The notes beneath the pieces are model-generated. The model saw only the letters and a program-made list of their open reading frames with translations. It did no database searches and was not told the DNA's origin. The position numbers and the translations under genes were made by a program. DNA of 64,000 nucleotides from Heterostelium album PN500 (lineage: Eukaryota; Evosea; Eumycetozoa; Acytosteliales; Acytosteliaceae): assembly GCF_000004825.1 (NCBI RefSeq), contig NW_008805078.1, positions 648,069 to 712,068 on the forward strand. The letters run 5' to 3'. Below, piece by piece: positions 2,699 through 61,695 of the stretch (positions are counted from its first letter, which is position 1; every line of letters starts with the position of its first letter).

Positions 2699-3115
2699 AA
2701 TTATCTCACCAAACTTAGCAGTTAACCGATTTTCATTCGACTCCAACTTACAAAACCTTATCATATCATTTTATTATTTTCAAAATTAATGTCAATATCA
2801 CATTAATCAACAACAACAAACTCCTCCCTCTCTCACACAATCTATCTATTTATACAACATATTTAAATAATATATTTTTTGTACAAATAAAAAATACCTT
2901 GTATTTAATTAATTAAAACCAATTTATTTATCCATCTTTTAAATGAATGATTAGAACAGTACAAGAGATCATGTTGCAGCTTTAATGATTTTATCTCAGC
3001 AATGAAAACACACAATTAAATTTTTTTAAACACGAGTGAAGTTGAACATACTCGTAAAAAAAAAAGTATTTATTATTAAGGTGAATAGCAGTATTCATTC
3101 ATTTTAATTTCAACA
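2699..3115. other. Intergenic region
   Basis: About 415 bases, very AT-rich, with AATAAA-type signals near 2887 for the upstream gene and oligo-A/T runs before the downstream start. Nothing else recognised. Confidence 0.6.
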
Positions 3116-5033
3116 ATGTTAAATCTTTTTAAATATAATATTAGTAAACTTAGTAATAATAGTAGTAAAAGTTTATCTTTAATTGGAAATTTTAATAATG
3201 TTACTAGTCCTTACAGTTTTATAAAACAACAATCTTTTAATACAACAACAACAACAACATTGTTGTTTGCTAATAATAATAATAAATGTTTCAATGATAA
3301 TGTAGATTTCAAGTTCTACACAAAGGCAAATCATAAATATACTAGAAGAGCATCGTATACACATCAACAAGATATAAAGTCACTGAAGAAGAGAGAGGAG
3401 AAGAAGGAAGCTTCACAACAACATAGAGAACCAACAGAGTTCCCACACAATAAGAAGGCACATGAACACACCAAGCCATTATCACATCAGGATAAACTTG
3501 ATCTAAAGAAGAAGTTGAAGGCACGTCGTAAGAAGGAGATCAAGGATGACAATGCTGAGCGTGTCAAGCATATCATGGAGGCGGAAGATGAATCTGCACA
3601 GGAAATCAAGTCTGCATCATCGACCTCATCACACAGAAATGCATCGACCTCGTCACTATTGAATGCTGCAGCCAGTTCTGTTTCCATAGAGAAGGGTGAA
3701 GAAGTATTGGCAGCACTCTCAAACAGCAATCAAAGACGTGTAAATAACATTCAATTGGAAGACGATGACGAAGATGATCAACATCATCAAGAGGATATTG
3801 ATGATGACAATGAAGAAGATTTAATCTATCAAGATGAAGATGAAGAGTTTGAAGAGGATGAAGATAATGAAGATAATGAATTGGATGAGATCGATGAAGA
3901 TGAAGATGAAGATGACGAAGAAGGCGATTATCGTGATCAATATGAAGATGACGATGCAGATTTGGAGGAGTATGAAGATGATGGTGAGCCAGAGTTTGAT
4001 TTGGATTCGATCGATCCCTCAAAGATCATCGAGGTCGATGCAGAGATGTTGAAAGATCTACCGGTCGATGATGACGGTCAAATCGTTCTACCAAACTTTA
4101 TTTCATTCGAAGATGCCAAATCAAAGTATGGTTTCACAGAGAGAGAGTTGAAAGATAGTGCATTCTCCTATGCCGCTGCAGAAGCCGCCAGACAAATGGA
4201 AGCGGAGAAAGCACAAGGCGAAGACAAGAAAGGTGCACCAAAGAAATCAAAGAAATCAACTAAACAATTGGAGAGAGAAGCAAAGACTGCTGCTCAATTG
4301 CCAAAGGTGGAAGAGGTAGAAGAGGAGGAGGAGGAGGTCGAAGACTCTGAGACCACAAGAAAGAAGCAACAGAAACTCGACAAATCATTGAGAAAACAAG
4401 TGTCTCAAGTCAAAGAATCAAAGAAAGAGGAATTCGAGAATATCGATCATTTCATTCGTGACAAACATCTTCAGAAGCTACAATCGGCACGTGGAGGTCA
4501 AATCGGAATGCAACCAATCGTCAAAGGTCCACCAAAGGTAGCCGAGATTATGGAGGTGTTGGCCGAAACCAAACTAGAGGATTTCTGTGTCATCGATGTA
4601 TCGGACAAATGCAAGTGGACTAAATATATGATTGTTGCAAGCTCAGATTCAAACAGAGTCATATTAAATGCTGAAGAAGATTTATTAGAAAAGGTAAGGA
4701 AAAATCATGATTTATACAAACACCAACTTAATTGGTTATAGCAATCGTTTTATTAAAATTATTCATCATTACTATTATTTATTATAAATATAGTTCCAAA
4801 ATAGATTATCAAAAGGACATCAACCAAGAAATCCAACTGATGACTCTGATGTTTGGAGAGTTTTGGATCTTGAAGAGTGTTTGGTTCATTTGTTTGAAAC
4901 ATCAACTAGAGAATATTATGATTTGGAAACACTATGGGTAACCAGAAGACCAGCCGGTAGTGAAGAACAAAGTTGGGATGATGAAAAGACAGACATGATC
5001 GCTGAAAGACATTCAAATCCAAAGAATGACTAA
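3116..5033 (+). CDS. malsu1: Mitochondrial ribosome-silencing factor RsfS/MALSU1-like with long acidic N-terminal extension
   Basis: Two exons, 3116-4693 and 4794-5033 (605 aa), with a phase-0 GTAAGG...TAG intron. The C-terminal ~120 residues are the RsfS/DUF143 domain: KLEDFCVIDVSDKCKWTKYM, then after the intron SDVWRVLDLEECLVHLF and REYYDLETLW. The family binds uL14 of the large ribosomal subunit and blocks joining or assists assembly; the eukaryotic form is mitochondrial. The N terminus is Ser/Asn/Lys-rich and lacks acids for about 60 residues, as in a presequence. Between lies ~400 residues of charged sequence: a Lys/Glu block, then nearly uninterrupted Asp/Glu (~3760-4000), then an Ala/Lys/Glu helix. 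Typical members are only ~110-250 aa, so the size is unusual. Confidence 0.85.
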
Positions 5034-5350: not shown

Positions 5351-7364
5351 ATGACTACTTTAAATATCGATTTAAATTCTTACAATGATTGTATCATTGA
5401 TAATTTCGAGAGTGAAACATTCAACAAAGTATGTAATTTAATTATTTTTTTTATACAACTTTAAAGTTGCAACACTCTTTTTAACATTTGGGTATTTCAT
5501 TTAGCTATACAAGTTGGTTGTAGATCATCATAGAGATGATTTAAACGAATCAAATACTGTATTGGATGTTGCTGAAGGCAATTTGATATATTTAGCTTTG
5601 GCTGGTAGTCAATCATTCAATTTGCATATAAATGGGAGTGATCAAGATTTCATTGGTGTCAGAGAAGCACCTATTGATGTTGTTTTGTCGCTAGATGGAC
5701 CAAAGGATACAATTCATCATTTGAAACCTGATATTTCAATATATGAGTTAAGACACTATTGCAAGTTACTTCTAATGGGTAATCCTAAGCAAATAGAGGC
5801 ACTCTATACAAAAGATATGTGTTACATCTCTGAGGAATGGCAACACCTGCAGCGTATCAAAAGAAAGTTGATAACATTGGTGTCGATCGATCACTACTAT
5901 AACACAATCAAGGCACTTCACTATGACTTGAAATATATGTCTAAAGAGAGATCACTGTCTTTGGATGGAAATGCAAATGAAGAATCAAATGAAAAGAAAA
6001 GGAGAAAACATCAAAAGATGGTGGAAAACAATAAGGTACAGAGTATCATCAATCAAAAGAAACAAGAGGATGCGAATCTAGAGGTTGGAAACACATTCCA
6101 TAAGAAAGCATATCACTCTATTAGACTTTTGACAGAGGTGAATCGTTTGTTGGATGGATTGGATCCAATCGTGAGATTCGAAGATTCAAGTTTAGAGAGA
6201 CAACTCATACTCACTATCAGAAAAGAGGAGATACCAGACAAGGAACTAATGGAGTTGATAGACAGTAAATACAGTGAATTCGAATTTAAACGACAGAGTA
6301 TAGATACAAGTAGTTTACCAGAGGAAGTTGATATCGATTTAGTAAATAAGTGGTTAGTTAATATTCGTAGGAAAGCAATAGATCAAGATAAAAGCGACAG
6401 ATTCAACTTTAATAGCAATCAAGGTGGTCAGAGCATAAAACAACAAGCAGATAATTTATTGTTAAAGAATGGTATTAGAGGTCAAGTTATTTATGTTGGT
6501 ATCAGTGGTAGTCATCTCTTCAATCTCTCTACCAACTCTGATGAATCTCAGCTCTACGACTATGTTGGTGTTTATGCCGCTGACACTGATGATGTTGTAT
6601 CATTATGTCCACCACCAATCAAGATAGATCAAGAGTCAGTCAGCAAATCTAGTGAATATATACCCAGGAATCATAAGCCTGCACCATCACCGGTCGCTAC
6701 AAAGAAAGATATCACAACTCGTGGAATGATTCTTTATGAAGTTGGCTATGCAATCTCTTTATTTATCAATGGAAACTATCGATTGTTCGAACAACTGTTT
6801 GTCGATGAAAGAATAACACAACGATATACTACCGATGCCTGGTTGGAGTTGTTGTCAAACAAGTCATTCTATTCGAATAGAACAATGGCTCAGGCTAACT
6901 GGGGAGTAGGACAAGCCGAGTATATGAAAGCACGTCAACTACTTGGACTGAAAAAGATCATTACAAACAAGAGAGCTTTGAAGAAGTTGTCAGCAGATGC
7001 GACAAAGTATGAAAACGAAACTATTGGTGAGAAAGTAACAGACAACGATATCAAGTTAGCATCTCGGTGCTTATACTACTCCTTTAGATTGTTATGGGTT
7101 TCGAAACAGATATTAAACGGTAGCAAATCTCCATCGTTATATTTTGAAAATGATAGTGAAGAGAGAAATCTGTTGTTACAACTCAAAGATGGACTGATAA
7201 ATAGAGAGACCATCATGACATCTATTGAAAATTGCAAGTCACTTATGGAAGAGACATCAGAATCATTGGAAATATTGAAAACTATTTGCAAATCCGATGA
7301 ATTGGAATCACAAACCAAGACTCTACTCAATCCATGGTTAATAAAAATAAGAAAGTCATTATAA
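5351..7364 (+). CDS. Protein with two tandem RlaP/DNA polymerase beta-type nucleotidyltransferase domains
   Basis: Exons 5351-5428 and 5505-7364 (645 aa), phase-0 intron GTATGT...TAG. Copy 1 (about residues 45-230) has the nucleotidyltransferase signature AGSQSFNLHINGSDQDFIGV, i.e. GS followed by a D-x-D metal-binding pair, then ELRHYCKLLLMGNPKQIEAL, typical of the RlaP-like family (PF10127). Copy 2 (about 350-530) repeats it as ISGSHLFNLSTNSDESQLYD and later GYAISLFINGNYRLFEQLFV, but the two acidic residues are separated by an insert, so metal binding there is doubtful. Bacterial and phage RlaP-type proteins are predicted RNA-repair nucleotidyltransferases; the substrate here is unknown. Lys/Glu-rich linkers follow each copy. 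It is convergent with mtHsp70 87 bases downstream. Expected compartment unclear; no targeting peptide is obvious. Confidence 0.72.
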
Positions 7365-19789: not shown

Positions 19790-22700
19790 CTAGTTAGCTA
19801 GATTCTCGAGACTTGAACAATCCATACTATCACTCTCTTGTACGGCAACTTCCGGTATGACAACACTTTCTTGTTGATTGTCATCTTCCTCATCGTCATC
19901 GTCATCTTCCTCATCACTATAGTCATCATCATCATCAACTTCGGTAGTATTCCGAGTTTTGTCAGTTGCCATTTCTTCAGTCGATAGATTGCTAGCATCT
20001 GGCTCAGTTTCACTCTTGTCATCTTCATCATCTTCCTCGTGCATCACTGTTTGATTCGACGATGTGGCGGTGGCACTGGCAGTGGTGTCGGTCACTGACT
20101 GTGGTGTTTTCGTGCGGTCAACGGGGAGCAAAGTCTTCATTAGTTCTAATACACGACCAACAGTGCAGCCTAGTTTTTTGAGTACAAAGTCTTTGGTCTT
20201 TTCAATACCTTGGTCAAGCAGTAGACAACCAACCACCGATTCAAACAGATCACCCATACGCTTTTGATTAAAAACGATACCAGGGCAGGAACTAAGATCA
20301 ACACAATCCTTGAGATTCAATTGCTGGAAGATGCATGCCAAACTATCGTTCTTAACCAAAAGAGCTCTTGCCTGAGAAAGAAATCCTTCTTGTTCATTGG
20401 GGAATGCATGGAACAAGAAATCCGATGTCACAACATCCAAGAATGCATCACCAAGGAACTCCAATCGTTGATATGACATTCTCGGATCGGAACTACAGTT
20501 CATCGCCTCTGTAAACAAACAATTATGTTTAATTTCAATATTGTTTGCAAATAAAATATTAATTTGTACATCATCTGCGGAAAAAAAAAAGAATGATTAT
20601 AGGTTTGTTAGATAATGATTGATTTCAATGCTATCATTATAATTAAATTAAAAACATACTTAATGGTGTTTCATATTGATGGTGACATTTATATTCTGGG
20701 AATTTGGAATGATCGATTTTGAAGATCATCTTCATAATGAATCTAAAGGCTTCGTACATTCCTCTCTCTAGATAGACAGCACCAAACAGAGCTTCGACTA
20801 CATCTGCCTTTGGTTTTTTGATATCATCTTTGTTTTGTGGCAATCTTAATACCTCATCCATTTCAAACATATCGCAAATCTCTATTAGATAGTTATTGTT
20901 TGTCATCTCACTTCTCTTGGTTGTCAATACTCCTTCCATTGCTTCTGGGAATTTATAAAATAGATAAATACTAAAAAATTAAATAAAAAAGGAATTGAAT
21001 ATTAGTTAACATTTTAGCTAAGATAGATAGGAGAGTTAGTTATTTATATTGTTTAAACATACGATGTACAAAACTTTAATACAGAGTCACCTAGGAATTC
21101 AATTCTTTGATTATCACCTTCATAGAACTTGTAGTTTTTGTAGATTTTCATGTTGACTGGTGGTGTCTGGTTGCTACGCTTGGTCGACGGATGTGTGAAC
21201 ACCTCACGTAGTAGACGTTCATTGTTGATACTGTAGATATTTCGTTTGAAAGACTCCATCTTTCTACAGAACTCAATCTCTGTGAGGAATACCAGAATGG
21301 CAATCTTGGCGGTGGAGTGCATCAACGATGTTATACCAAATACCTTCAATACCAACGGATCCTTTGGGAACAACTTTGACTTTCGAATGTAACTCTCCCA
21401 TTTGATCTGTGGCATCTGATTGAACAACTTACCCGACCATTTGGCAGGATCCTCCAAATCACCTTGCTCACTGTAGAACGACAGTGATTTCAACTTCCAA
21501 TAGTCGTTGGAAATCGATGCCTTTGAGTGTGTCACCATGAGCGATGGACAGACGCCACTCTTCAGACTGACCTTGTTGCCATTGAAGTCTTTGATCGGTG
21601 GGAAGTTGTTGTCTTTATACTCAAAGTGTTGTTTGTAATCGATTTGACGAACCACGTTGAAGTCGACATACGGTGTCATAACGACTTTGTTTAGGAACTT
21701 CTGCTCAAAGAACTGGTTGAATTCCTTGCCTTTGAGTGGAGGCGGTTGGTAGGTCGGCTCCTCGTAGGTGATCAGCTCCATGAGCGTGGTGGTGAGCGGC
21801 CGCGTCGGATTGTCGACCAGCATAACATTGGGAACGAAATACATCTGCTCTGGTGAGCTGCGAGTCATCGACTTTTGATCCAACACCTGCTGGTAGAAGA
21901 AACTGTGGAACGTTACCAACTTTGCGAATTCCTCTTTGGTCAGTGTTTCGCGACCGTACTCAACGATCGACATTGCAAAGTGATCGCCACCGCTATTCGC
22001 AATGTGAATGACAGGCTTCGGTATGATCACCGGACTGTAGAGAATGAATCCACTGAAGTGATAGCGCTGTCCGAGATGCAGGTAGTCCTCGCCGTGAAAG
22101 CCGTGACTGAAGACCGAGAGATATCGGTAGAACGATACTTTGCTTGGGATCGAAGAGTCGAGTGACTGCAGCTGTATGGTCGATCTCCGTGAGTTTACGA
22201 GACCGTCTAGCGAGCAGCTACCGCTACCACTGCCGCCACTGCCACCGCCACCACTTCCCGACAGCTGATTTTGCTTCCTGGTGTCACCAGTGGACATGAT
22301 CACAGTGACCGGTTGCACACGATCGTTCTTTCTCGCTTTTTTCCGTAGCTGTTTCTCGATGTACTCTCTATTCTCGGTGTGTTTCGACTCGACGTTGTAC
22401 CGGAGATCTCTAACGACTTTCTCCAACTCAACAATACGCTCTACAGCAGATTCCAACTGTCTCTGAAGCTTGAGATTATCGGTTCTAAGACTAAGTTCTA
22501 CACTATTCACATATGTAAGAGTAGCAATATCACTAGGTATATTTACAGTGATATTCGATTGATTCGTTGCAGATTGACTATTGTTATTATTGCTATGTTG
22601 ATGGTGATGGTTTTGAATAGGTGTATTTGTTGTAGCTGTAGGAACACGAGCATTATTATAACCCTGATTACTAGATGATGTGGTTCTACTTGAATTTCCA

Positions 22701-23347
22701 TAGATATTACCTCCAAAGTAATAAGATGGTTTCTTATCTACTGACATTGTATCATTATGACCATGATTACCATTATGATTATTTAAACTTCCAAATGCAT
22801 TGTTCAAATAGAAAGGATCACCTACATCTTGTGAATGATGATGTTGGTATTGATTTTGATGTTGATAATAATCAGATGAAGATGACGATGGTGTTATTGG
22901 AGATGGTATAGAAGATGAAGCTGATGAAAATGAAGTTGATGATGATGAGGATGAGGAGGAGGAAAACGATGATAATGGTGAAACTGATGAATTTGTTGGT
23001 GTAATAAATGATTTATTAGTTGGTGTGGAAATATTAGAAGTCGTATTCGTATTGGTATTAATATTCGTCGTAGTATTCGTAGTAGTAGAAGTTATTATTC
23101 TCTGTTGTTCATCTGCTTTTATTAAAGCTAATACATCACGCGCAGCATATCTCTCTGCTTCCTTCTTTGCTTTAGCTCTTCCCTCTGCTCTATATACTTT
23201 TCCACCATACTTTACGACTACCTCTGTTATAAAGTTGTTTCCGGTGTTATCGGATACATAGATTGCATCTGAATATTGTGGTAATGACTGTGGATCATTC
23301 CTCTGGCACAACTCTTGTAACAATCCTTTATAATTCTCATGTGACAT
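19790..23347 (-). CDS. Dicer-like RNase III with N-terminal dsRBD and two RNase III domains, no helicase (DrnA/DrnB type)
   Basis: Exons 21063-23347, 20660-20970, 19790-20574 (1126 aa); the junctions restore conserved RNase III sequence. A dsRBD occupies residues 1-80 (YGGKVYRAEGRAKAKKEAER). A long Ser/Asn/Gly linker with a coiled-coil segment follows, then ~300 conserved residues with a possible PAZ-like part. RNase IIIa starts near 710: LLREVFTHPS, NQRIEFLGDS, completed after intron 1 by YLFYKFPEAMEGVLTTKRS and DVVEALFGAVYLERG. RNase IIIb: YQRLEFLGDAFLDVV and KRMGDLFESVVGCLLLDQ. Catalytic acids are kept in both. The tail is Asp/Glu-rich. No DExD helicase is present, matching D. discoideum Dicers, where the related helicase is fused to RdRP proteins. 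Role: small-RNA production. The gene is convergent with surface gene A, 114 bases between stops. Confidence 0.93.
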
Positions 23348-23622
23348 ATTAAAAACAATAATATCTATCTGTCATTCATTAGCATAAGAAATAATAAAAA
23401 ATATTGTGTGTATATGTGTGTGTATGTATGTTTTAAAAGATTGAAAACAATCAAAAATGAACTTAACTTGTTTTAGTGAGTTTTTAAGCACATTTTTGGA
23501 ATGATTAACAAAACAACTAAAAACAAAATAAATTAAATTAAAAATGAAAGAGTGTTGTTTGTGAAAACACACATTTTTTGGGTTGTTGTTGTTGTTTTTG
23601 TTTTGTTTTGTTTTGTTTATTA

Positions 23623-55987: not shown

Positions 55988-58024
55988 ATGTCGAGCGACG
56001 ATGAAGAATTCAGTGATGTAGACGAAGATGAAGATTACTACGATCCTGATGATACCGCTTTTGAGAATGAAGATGATATCGACGAGGACGATGACTATGA
56101 TGATGACTATGAGGATGATGACTATGAATATGTTGGCAGTGAAAACTATGGCGGCGGAGGTATCTATTTACAAACTAATGCTCCAACCACCGGTGGTTTA
56201 ACAATTACCGATATCTTAACTATATATCTGTATGTAGATTATTATTATTATTTTTATTATCTCTGTCATTGTTAATGACTAATTTTAAAAATTTAATTAG
56301 TCAAAGATCAAGAATGCAAGGAACAAACATGTCGAGAGCACCACCCGAAAACGATGGATCTGCACCACCTCCTAAAATCGATTTAGATGTATGTATTTGT
56401 ATAGATGTTGAGCAGAACGATTCTACTTACATACTTACTAACATGATTATATAATGTAGCTACATACTGATTTACCAAGATCAACTGATTTATCGACAAA
56501 TAGATACTTATTCAATGTAAGAATTATCATATTTATAATCATAAAACAGACATTTATATCAACAAATATATATGTTTATAGAGAGAAATACTGGGAAAGA
56601 AAAACAATTCCGTCGATATTTCATCACATTTCCTTCCAGCCAATAGCTTTAAGAATATTGCAAAGCTTTCATCTAAAATATTCTGTTGTCAATATTTAAA
56701 TCAAGGAAATACTTTTATGAGTGCAAGTCAAGGTAAATCAAAAATGATTATATTAGTATAAATACATCAGTCAGACATGTTACTTAATTGTTTATTCTTT
56801 GAATATATATATATATATATAACTATAACAGACAGGATAATAAGATTTTATGATACATCGAATTGGGAGATCAAGAAGATGATACAAGCACAAGATATAA
56901 ATTGGTCGATTATCGATGTCGATGTTTCACCCAATCAACAGTCAATGATTTACTCATCGTGGAGTCCGTATATCTATTTGGTAGATCTGACAAAGGATGA
57001 CGACGACGACGACAATATTCATCCGAATCAGAGACCACTCGATCTCTTCCCAGATGTCGATCGGTTCTGTGTGTTCGGTTTGAAGTTCTCACACAACAGT
57101 ACAGAGATACTGGCGGGTGCGTCGAATGGCTTGTTCTACTTGTACGATTTGATAGCGGGAAGTCGTGTCGCTCAGATCTATGGACATGCCGACGATGTAA
57201 ATAGCGTGTGTTTTCTCGATGCGCATAGCGACAGCAACACCCTGGTGACGGCAAGCGACGACTACTACATTAAGATTTGGGATAAGCGAACGATGCGCTC
57301 CCAACACGAGACCAATCCAAACCGACGTGTCTCCAAGCCGGAGGGCTATCTCTCGGGACACAGGCGTGGCTTGACCTTTGTAGAGTCGAAGGGTGACAGT
57401 CGATACCTGCTGAGCAACGGTAAAGACAGGAAGGCCAAGCTGTGGGACATCAGAAAAATGGCGACAAGCATCAATCAGATATCGACTTCGCGATCGGAAT
57501 ATCACAACGATCAGGACTACCGATTTGGTTCCAGTGGCGGTTCGACACTGGGACCTACCAACAACGAAAAGGATCTTTCCATCATGACCTACTCACGCCA
57601 CTCTGTATTCCAGACTTTGATTCGATGCCATTTCTCACCATTAGCAACAACATCTCAAAAATATATCTACACTGGATCAGCAACTGGTGAAGTATTTAGT
57701 AAGTATTTGGATATGAAAAGAAAAAAAAACAATATTCTAAATAACTCACCATTCCTTTTTTTTTTTTTTAGTTTATGATTTACTATCTGGTGAATTGGTA
57801 GATACATTAAATCAAGGTCATGGTTTAATTAGAGATCTATCGTGGGCACCGTACTCACCTCAACTAATTTCCACTTCTGTAAGTTACATAATGTGTTAAA
57901 ACATTGTCATAGGAATATATGCTTACTATCTTTTATTTATTCTCTATAGTGGGAAGGATATATTACAAAATGGGATGATTGGTACGATCATAGATACAAC
58001 GATGGATTATCAGTCGCAAATTGA
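55988..58024 (+). CDS. dcaf11: DCAF11/WDR23-like WD40 protein, CUL4-DDB1 substrate receptor
   Basis: Seven exons: 55988-56229, 56301-56388, 56460-56516, 56582-56732, 56832-57698, 57772-57878, 57950-58024 (528 aa). The N terminus is Asp/Glu/Tyr-rich (DDYDDDYEDDDYEYVG), then REILGKKNNSVDISSHFLPA and the seven-blade WD40 domain: CCQYLNQGNTFMSASQD, INWSIIDVDVSPNQQSMIYS, HADDVNSVCFLD, TASDDYYIKIWDKRTMR, LSNGKDRKAKLWDIRKM, ending in WEGYITKWDDWYDHRYND. The layout follows human DCAF11 and plant LEC14B. DxR-type residues for DDB1 binding are present in the WDKR and WDIR repeats. DCAF11 in animals targets NRF2-type factors; the dictyostelid substrate is unknown. Convergent with the borealin-like gene, 59 bases between stops. 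Confidence 0.93.
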
Positions 58025-58083: not shown

Positions 58084-58505
58084 TTATTTTGTATTCGCTA
58101 TGATTGGAGCATTTAATAGCTCAATCATTTTCTTTTTAATATCCTCCATCTCTTCCACTACCATTGATGTTGATGGTGATGTATTTATAGGTTGACTGTT
58201 GTTGTTGCTATTGTTGATCTCTGTTGTTTTGTTTGTTAAACTATCGTTGTATTTCTCTATAAACTCTTTCATTGTCATTGATCGAATCGATTGTGGAATC
58301 TTTATTAAATCTATAGCAAATTGATTTCTAATGGTTGTACAAATTAACTCTGCTTCCTCTCTCATTCTATGACATCTAATATCGACTACAACATATTGTA
58401 TATTAATAACTAACTAATGAGCTACTACAAAATGTAAATCTTCATACCTTCATTATCAAAGTCTTCTAAATAAGCTTCTAATATTTCTTTATTATATTTA
58501 TTCAT
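58084..58505 (-). CDS. Borealin/Nbl1-like chromosomal passenger complex subunit
   Basis: Exons 58448-58505 and 58084-58385 (119 aa); GTATGA...TAG intron in phase 1. The N-terminal ~65 residues match the borealin/Nbl1 N-terminal domain: LEAYLEDFDNEVDIRCHRMR, then NQFAIDLIKIPQSIRSMTMK and EFIEKYND, against human borealin FLKDFDREVEIR...LRLPKALREM. In animals and yeast this helix bundles with INCENP and survivin/Bir1 to place Aurora B kinase. The rest is a short Asn/Ser linker and a helix ending in ELLNAPI; the C-terminal dimerisation domain of animal borealins is absent, as in yeast Nbl1. The splice junction falls inside the key DNEVDIR motif, so unspliced translation would miss it. The E2F palindrome 83 bases upstream fits a cell-cycle gene. 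Confidence 0.8.
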
Positions 58506-58964: not shown

Positions 58965-61695
58965 CTACTTGTTCAGGGAACTCATAAACGAAGAAATGGA
59001 GAACTCTTTCTTAAGATTTCCACTTGAACCCTGTTGTGATGAAACCGACTCTGACGAAGAGCTACGCTGCTCTCTTGGTTCACAAATCTGACTGTATTTG
59101 TAAAGTGCCTTTTCTGTAAGACCTGGAATATTTTTTACATAACGCGAGGTTGCATCCTCCACTCTGAAGTGATAAGGTGTCTGTTGATACTGCTTGATTT
59201 CACGAATGACAACCGAAATTCTTCTACGCTTCTCAAAGTTAATTATGTCATCACAGTTGTTCAATGTATTCTTTGTACCATCTTCAATAAAAGTTAAATC
59301 TGTTAAATATACACCCTATTTGATTAATGCATTAATTATGTTAGTACTCACAATTGAATTATTGTTGTTGTTATTTGTTTGTTTGTTACTTACAAGGTAT
59401 GGAATACAAGGAGGATGTACAGAGTGAAGTGCAGCTCTATAGTCTTTAAAGTTATTCTTTTGTGCCATTAGAACGAGTAGCTCATCGTAGATGTTCTTGA
59501 GCAATGGTTTAGATTCGATCTTCTCCCAGGTCTTGGAAAGACGGTAGACGGAGGCATTTTGCAAACCAGAGAGAATCTCCATACAACCATTGAAATTACC
59601 AATGTCACGACACTTTTGTGCGATAATGATGAATCTCTTGACGACTGAGACACGCTCCTTTAGTTTCTCGGTTCTGACGATTTCGGTTGCGACCCAGTTG
59701 GAAACGGCGTTGAATCTTCTGATGAATGCAACGATGTTGGGTGCCAACTCGTCTTTGTTTTGCTTGTTCCAGCTCTGTCCCAAACACTCTTTCGATTCGA
59801 TCTTACGATAGAGCTCCGACTCGATCAGAGTGAGTTGACGAGCAATCTCAGTGGTATCCAAATCAATAAAGTTTGGATCACGCACTTTGGGTGCGATGAC
59901 GGCGGGTGGATCTTCGTTGAACACCGGGATCGGTGCCATACGTTCATTGTTGAGCAGCTTTTTTAGATTTCGACCGATACCCTCGAGATCGATATTGATA
60001 TGATTGTTAATGAAATGATCGACTTTGGCAACCAGTGCAGCATCGTCGCTGAAATCGTGGAAATGCTTGTCCAACCACATCTTGATGACGTTGGCGACAC
60101 GAAGACGAACGATACGACGCTTCTTATCGAGCTGTGCCGACGGCATTGAACTGTCATCGGTTATATTGTATGATTTAATTAACATGTCCATCAGCTCGAT
60201 GGGTGTGGTGAAAGAACGATAGGTCAAGAGGAATGCAGAAGCAAAATCGGTGTCATGTGACTTGTCATATGACAGACGCTGTACAAGACGCTCCAGTGTT
60301 CCACCCTTGACCAGATAGGCACCAGTCTCACTCTTGATCAATACCAAGTTTGGATCATCGAGATTCTCTGGTTCTTCAAAGGCATCGTCCTCGGCGGCCG
60401 CCAGCAGTGTCGGGGTCGAAGGACGTCCGGCACTGGTCGACAGTCCGACTGGCTTTGGCGCGACCGACGATGTTCTGACGAGCGATGGATTGCTCATTGG
60501 TGCCGGTGTGTTTGAGGGGAATGGTGATGTTTTACTACGACGATCGTTGGGAATGGGTGGAAGTGGTTGTGGTGGAATTTTACGACGCTCTTTGAAGCCG
60601 TCGGCCGACGAAGCAGACGAGCCAAGTGAGTCGGGTGAAGCAAGAGGTGGCGAGCTAGAGTATGAAAATGAGTTTATCGATGAACCCGACGATACCAAGG
60701 AGATTGGTGACGATGGGTGGTAGACTGGCGATGATGTTGGGTTGGTAAATACAGGGGTAGATGACGAGAGTTGGTTCGACGAGGTGGAGTTGGAGTTGAT
60801 GATGCGGCCGTTTGGCAATGAAGCTGCTGGGTTGGCAGAGATGGAGAGTGGAGGTGGTGATTGTGGAATATTGTTGCTGCCGCTCAATGGAGTTGCAGGG
60901 AATCTTAAGAAAGAATCTTTTGTTGAGGCGATCGAGTCGGAACGTACTTTGGCAGCGGACCAGTTCTTGTTGGCGTTGTTGCCGTTGCTGCTGCTGCCGG
61001 TCAAAGACGATACCGATGACGAATGACTATGTTGAACACGCTCCTCATTTGGAGGAGAATTATTTCCAGCGACATCGCCATCGGCAATGTCGGGTGATTG
61101 CTGTAAGTAGGTCTCAGATGTGCTTCTGATCAAGATTGGCTTTCGCAGTGCACTGTTTGGCACGCCCAGAGGGGTGACATTATTGCTGGTTCTTGGTGAT
61201 ACCATCGGTGCTTGAACGTTGTGACTATTGACATTTGGTGTTGGACGAACTGTTTTCATACTGCTGTTGGGTACTGTCTGTGCTGGGTAGGTGGGTGGCG
61301 ACGATGACAGCTGACTGTCTTTGCTCATACTCTCATAGATATCCGATAGACAATTGGAGAGATCACGATCCTCATTGAAACTTCTCTCCAACAATTTAGT
61401 CTGAAAGTATTCCAACTGCTCCTTTAAATGTCCATTCACTGCTTCCAACTCCATTACCCTATATTGAAGTCTTGAATTCTCTTCCTAAAAAAAAAAATAA
61501 TAAAATAATATTTATAATTATTATTATTTTCTTTGTTTTTTTCTATGTCTTTACATGTTTGAAGATTACCTCTAATTCATTGATTCTATATAGGAATGTT
61601 TCATTGTTGAGTACACCATTCTTACTGCTATGAAAATTGTTGCTGCTGTTGATATTGTTGTTGTTGTTATTATTGATATTATTATAATTATTCAT
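58965..61695 (-). CDS. RasGEF (CDC25-type Ras guanine nucleotide exchange factor)
   Basis: Exons 61570-61695, 59394-61484, 58965-59315 (855 aa). Start taken at MNNYNN, the first ATG after upstream non-ATG codons. Residues ~35-75 form a short coiled coil (RVMELEAVNGHLKEQLEYFQ). A 330-residue Ser/Pro/Asn region follows. The RasGEF N-terminal (REM) domain is at ~417-560 (YLVKGGTLERLVQRLSYDKS; FASAFLLTYRSFTTPIELMD). The CDC25 catalytic domain is at ~580-830: DLDTTEIARQLTLIESELYR, FNAVSNWVATEIV, NFNGCMEILSGLQNASVYRL, IPYLGVYLTDLTFIEDGT. These are complete. It should activate a Ras or Rap protein in chemotaxis or development; which one cannot be told. The last exon gives the end of the domain plus a Ser-rich tail. 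Confidence 0.94.

Follow-up and report, generated by a model that had tools for sequence, protein, structure and literature searches.

A compact Nbl1/borealin-like gene with an E2F-type promoter palindrome in the dictyostelid Heterostelium album

Introduction

The locus examined here raises the question of whether a short two-exon gene of the dictyostelid Heterostelium album PN500 encodes a borealin of the chromosomal passenger complex (CPC) and, if so, how much of the borealin known from human cells is retained in it. The composition of the CPC across eukaryotes was reportedly treated by Komaki et al. in 2022. That work is cited in passages of PMC10987093 and PMC11633173, and the former cites it for the lack of Borealin or Survivin homologues in many phyla, so that the presence of a borealin in a given lineage is somewhat informative. 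In Dictyostelium, excerpts of PMC3718339 and PMC12946202 describe one Aurora kinase for both polar and equatorial jobs. The window, by which is meant the whole 64,000-nucleotide stretch of DNA analyzed, comprises C17:648069-712068 of a 32.9-Mb genome in 39 contigs.

Results

Gene structure

The predicted gene model joins two exons into a protein of 119 residues (Table 1), and it is flanked by a DCAF11-like WD40 gene and a RasGEF gene. The coordinates, the strand, the intron at 58386-58447, and the length of 119 residues had all been proposed in the initial annotation and are reproduced on the basis of sequence. At this locus, ten splice variants keep the frame open for more than 100 residues, and two of them were scored with the Pfam profile PF10444 (Nbl1/Borealin N-terminal), yielding 77.0 bits with the 62-nt intron (58447-58386) and 68.2 bits with a 38-nt alternative (58447-58410). 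The exon-2 open reading frame by itself, from its first ATG, yields 45.4 bits in Pfam, and the exon-wise match in a profile search of the genome, at 58252-58386, yields 57.2 bits. The 62-nt splice is thus supported because exon 1 adds family signal. Composition backs exon 2 (GC 0.31; 3' spacer, 0.14) but not exon 1, since the latter, at 0.19, does not exceed the intron (0.24).

A different gene model, compatible with the borealin identity, would employ either the 38-nt intron or a further exon upstream, so that the protein would be longer and might bring its own tail for chromatin binding. The shorter intron leaves the frame open for 127 residues, AG dinucleotides in the stretch from the upstream stop to the ATG allow an upstream exon, and the GC of exon 1, not above that of the intron, also favors such a model. 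However, the 62-nt splice is better by 8.8 bits and keeps the domain gapless relative to human borealin, and a stop codon in frame 39 nt before the ATG indicates that there is no longer contiguously encoded N terminus. This alternative is considered improbable.

Table 1. Features of the borealin-like locus, its neighbors, and the exact palindrome copies elsewhere in the genome that have no clear cell-cycle neighbor.
Feature	Position	Strand	Remarks
Borealin-like gene, exon 1	58448..58505	-	ATG 58505-58503; contains codons 1-19 plus the first base of codon 20
Intron, 62-nt, phase-1, GT-AG	58386..58447	-	GTATGAAG...TGTTGTAG; predicted from sequence
Borealin-like gene, exon 2	58084..58385	-	Remaining domain and C-terminal tail; stop TAA 58086-58084
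Nbl1/Borealin N-terminal domain, residues 9-64	58252..58481 (intron inside span)	-	Pfam E 8.4e-22; PDB borealins E 6.6e-6 to 7.4e-5
Predicted C-terminal helix, residues 92-111	58111..58170	-	AlphaFold2 exon-2 model, best of five only
Perfect E2F-type palindrome TTTGGCGCCAAA	58588..58599	.	82 nt upstream of the ATG of the borealin-like gene
Neighbor: DCAF11-like WD40 gene	exon 56762-57775		Best PDB match DCAF11, E 1.1e-61
Neighbor: RasGEF gene	59319-61484	-
Palindrome copy	L018		CYTH ORF and DDE endonuclease ORF, both on low-coordinate side
Palindrome copy	L020		Three ORFs scanned, none matched Pfam
Palindrome copy	L021		Three ORFs scanned; two sub-cut-off matches, both in one ORF
Palindrome copy	L023		Within calponin-homology ORF
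Palindrome copy	L024		Two unmatched ORFs; CTNNBL at a distance of 1.7 kb
Palindrome copy	L025		3' end of aminotransferase ORF; methyltransferase-like ORF on opposite side, match below cut-off

Family membership

In the Pfam scan, residues 9-64 match PF10444 at 77 bits, against a cut-off of 24.4, and cover profile positions 2-57 of 57. A profile search of the 32.9-Mb genome finds this family in one place, the gene described here. No second Pfam domain lies above its cut-off in the protein, and an NCBIfam scan yields two matches, both far under their cut-offs. When the 119-residue protein is compared with PDB sequences, nine distinct sequences are matched at E ≤10, the first seven of which are all borealins, whereas the remaining two are flagellar proteins at E >4; the three borealin alignments displayed are all gapless. 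That with human borealin extends over 59 residues, with 14 identical and 36 positive, and has a BLOSUM62 score of 90. The compact Nbl1/borealin-like identity initially proposed, for which a search against PF10444 had been suggested as a check, is thus upheld by that search. Judged by these sequence comparisons, the gene does belong to the known borealin family, of which it is an unsurprising member, and it is very probably the organism's single-copy Nbl1-type borealin, a scaffold subunit of the CPC.

Regions missing relative to human borealin

In human borealin, N-terminal basic residues (R4, R9, and K12, and K12/R17/K20) are described in excerpts of PMC12420818 and PMC6891087 as anchoring on the nucleosome acidic patch; according to passages of the latter, the central loop contacts DNA as well as histone residues close by, and the dimerization domain shows no binding by itself and is thought to increase affinity (PMC6891087). 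In the PDB alignment the first residue of the amoeba protein corresponds to human residue 13, such that a counterpart of residues 1-12 is absent. Human R17 and K20 align with amoeba N5 and I8 (in an alignment to a 76-residue chain, with positions taken as residue numbers), and the net charge of the first 20 amoeba residues is -4, compared with +2 for the first 20 of the aligned human stretch. The C-terminal dimerization domain PF10512 has no match at E 1 in the 119-residue protein (Pfam) and none at E 1 in the genome (profile search run with no positive control). No animal-type nucleosome anchor is found in the amoeba gene model. Because of its late start, the N and I in place of R17 and K20, the charge of -4, and the lack of a PF10512 match, the amoeba protein is apparently a minimal, core-only borealin, with the human-type nucleosome anchor, loop, and dimerization domain missing in the gene model.

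Human borealin (CDCA8; chains such as 6yif, 8rup, 2qfa, and 9si3) has PF10444 in common with the amoeba protein but also has the basic N-terminal anchor and the PF10512 domain, both of which the amoeba gene model lacks. Budding yeast Nbl1 is small, consists essentially of the N-terminal borealin domain alone, and functions in the CPC. By description, the amoeba protein is like Nbl1, the name partner of the PF10444 family, in being core-only and equally short, but differs from it by a linker and an additional predicted helix.

CPC partners in the genome

The genome that carries the borealin-like gene also has genes for INCENP and an Aurora-type kinase. The INCENP IN-box (PF03941) is found by profile search in one place, on C9, with 31.5 bits in one exon; joining three exons by eye and by the GT-AG rule yields an INCENP of 939 residues, the joined C-terminal part of which reaches 37.7 bits after addition of the last exon. 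No Pfam family, INCENP_N included, is matched at E 10 by its first 180 residues, and in a PDB sequence search the N terminus matches none of the solved INCENP structures, although it contains a candidate helix. The best PDB row for this N terminus, a designed protein at E 1.6e-4, was dismissed, there being no single stretch that passed, and an INCENP_N match of 17.2 bits elsewhere in the genome (cut-off 25), located on another contig (C10), was set aside as chance. An Aurora-type activation-loop exon lies on C5, and among the best 60 of its 204 PDB matches the top ones are serine/threonine kinase 6, a synonym of Aurora A, and Aurora kinase A, from E 1.7e-40.

The BIR domain (PF00653) has no genome match at E 1 or at E 10, in a search with no positive control and for a domain that introns may split; a human Survivin query likewise has none at E 10, again with no positive control. 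Plant BORR works with BORI1/2, a non-BIR Survivin-like partner, as described in parts of PMC11794483 and PMC10987093, and the amoeba genome is similarly without a BIR match in these control-free searches; BORI1/2 serves as the plant third subunit, whereas no BORI-like candidate is named for the amoeba. A BIR-less CPC in an amoebozoan would be expected rather than strange.

The protein may instead have a borealin fold but have departed from the CPC, its homologous helix now serving in another coiled-coil assembly, as might be suggested by the missing equivalents of the nucleosome anchor, loop, and dimerization domain of human borealin and by the lack of a recognizable INCENP N-terminal partner motif. 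Such a departure is nevertheless quite unlikely given that the gene occupies a single place in the genome with a strong full-length profile match, that the same genome keeps INCENP and Aurora-type genes, and that the equally short Nbl1 of budding yeast acts in the CPC. Membership in the CPC remains the preferred reading.

Predicted fold

The solved borealin domain comprises a long helix, a turn, and a shorter helix. AlphaFold2 was run on the contiguous exon-2 product of 100 residues as a single sequence, leaving out exon 1. The best model has helices at 2-28, 32-35, 39-59, and 73-92 and a mean pLDDT of 74, whereas the other four of the five models have mean values of about 50. By block, pLDDT in the best model is 80-95 for the domain and 61-82 for the C-terminal helix; the latter (73-92) is separate, follows an Asn/Ser/Thr-rich linker, and has no family match. 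A Foldseek comparison of the exon-2 model with the PDB returns zero matches at E up to 10 and is uninformative. The predicted model agrees with a helical borealin domain, although this falls short of proof. The weakest alternative, that a charged helical segment resembles the borealin profile by chance, draws on the protein being short and helix-rich, a kind of sequence that yields spurious weak matches, and on Dcc1 and FAM167 appearing at E 0.03-0.04 in the same Pfam scan, but it is ruled out for practical purposes by the E-value of 8.4e-22 for PF10444, by the shuffle control for the human alignment (best of 20,000 = 34, with 0/20,000 reaching the gapless score of 90), and by the fact that all seven PDB matches to E 7.4e-5 are borealins.

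An E2F-type palindrome upstream of the gene

What is new here is the perfect palindrome TTTGGCGCCAAA upstream of the borealin-like ATG, which we take to read as a double E2F site. Exact copies number 11 in the genome, compared with 1 and 0 copies of control palindromes of the same composition and 0 of the reversed pattern. In the window the 12-mer with ≤2 mismatches has three matches against 2.3 expected, and therefore the exact copy alone is notable there. Profile search finds eight genome matches to the E2F/DP domain (PF02319).

The neighbors of the ten other palindromes were characterized from 20 open reading frames picked by eye for Pfam. Four of the ten are upstream of chromosome-cycle genes, namely Sos7, Nse4, ATAD5-like, and Wee1-like genes. 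The match to the Sos7 (kinetochore) family, at L019 4579-5508, has 37.8 bits and its open reading frame is about 0.5 kb from the palindrome; a Pfam match to Nse4 (SMC5/6) lies downstream of another; an AAA protein beside a third is closest to ATAD5, a clamp-unloader (E 4.1e-15); and near the fourth, the first long open reading frame, 1.1 kb from the palindrome, and a downstream kinase exon closest to Wee1 (E 1.1e-55) probably belong to one gene. The other six have no clear cell-cycle neighbor among the reading frames scanned (Table 1).

Two observations arise from this comparison. Sos7 is a further kinetochore subunit of this genome, reached through the promoter motif. At L021 2786-4285 (minus strand), a 500-residue open reading frame with no Pfam match at E 0.01 starts about 0.1 kb from an exact palindrome and is a candidate new cell-cycle gene.

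In D. discoideum, the genes that RblA represses include those for Aurora, INCENP, and a wee kinase, along with many others of S/M phase, according to passages of PMC3386910; the main text of that paper mentions borealin solely as an Rb target of mammals and does not list it with the amoeba genes under RblA repression. Contrary to this 2012 paper, a passage of PMC3224931 (2010) cites a report of a Dictyostelium RB orthologue without cell-cycle function. The 9-10 kb examined at the INCENP and Aurora loci contain neither TTT[GC][GC]CGC nor TTGGCGC on either strand, and the E2F idea is therefore not extendable to them by this motif. For the borealin-like gene, E2F control is a motivated inference, not a result.

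Other genes in the window

Dictyostelium DrnA and DrnB have a Dicer-like layout without a helicase. On the minus strand of the window, an open reading frame with an N-terminal dsRNA-binding motif (21056-23371) is followed by one with an RNase III domain (19793-20596), and at a guess the two (19793-23371) form one gene, Dicer-like and without a helicase. The RlaP family is found mainly in bacteria and phages; a plus-strand reading frame at 5505-7361 has a 63-bit match to the RlaP nucleotidyltransferase domain ('RNA repair pathway DNA polymerase beta family'). At 3089-4738, also on the plus strand, a 550-residue open frame closes with a match to the RsfS (ribosomal silencing factor) domain at 33.5 bits, its sole match in the scan.

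Discussion

The initial annotation had also suggested that a borealin in Amoebozoa would fill a gap, which overstates the case, since a curated Pfam profile picks the gene up easily and borealin has already been treated in a eukaryote-wide survey: it is discussed in portions of a 2017 study that surveyed 70 kinetochore proteins across 90 eukaryotes (PMC5579357). No description of a dictyostelid borealin gene was found in the excerpts of literature text on borealin and Dictyostelium, and such a gene is possibly already in the survey tables.

In the proposed role, the long N-terminal helix and the subsequent turn-helix would most likely pack on the INCENP N-terminal helix and on a third, Survivin-type helix, and Aurora, bound by the C-terminal IN-box of INCENP, would be brought to the chromosomes first and to the division plane afterward; we infer both complex formation and localization of the borealin-like protein. 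The amoeba borealin would retain the bundle-forming core alone. Because the basic tail, central loop, and dimerization domain are missing in the gene model, chromosome targeting would have to come from partners. The E2F-type promoter site suggests that the gene is transcribed in concert with those of S and M phase, under E2F/Rb control.

More tentatively, the dictyostelid CPC might possess a stripped borealin, with direct nucleosome anchoring lost, and no BIR-type Survivin, such that Aurora would reach centromeres via some third subunit or via INCENP itself, and borealin dosage would be set by E2F/Rb via the rare palindrome common to the Sos7, Nse4, ATAD5-like, and Wee1-like genes. This combined picture is possible but is put forward with some doubt.

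Workers on dictyostelid mitosis thus gain a concrete CPC gene to tag. The reduced form of this borealin predicts chromosome targeting by another subunit, and the promoter site offers a direct route to testing whether a mitotic gene is controlled by Rb/E2F in an amoeba.
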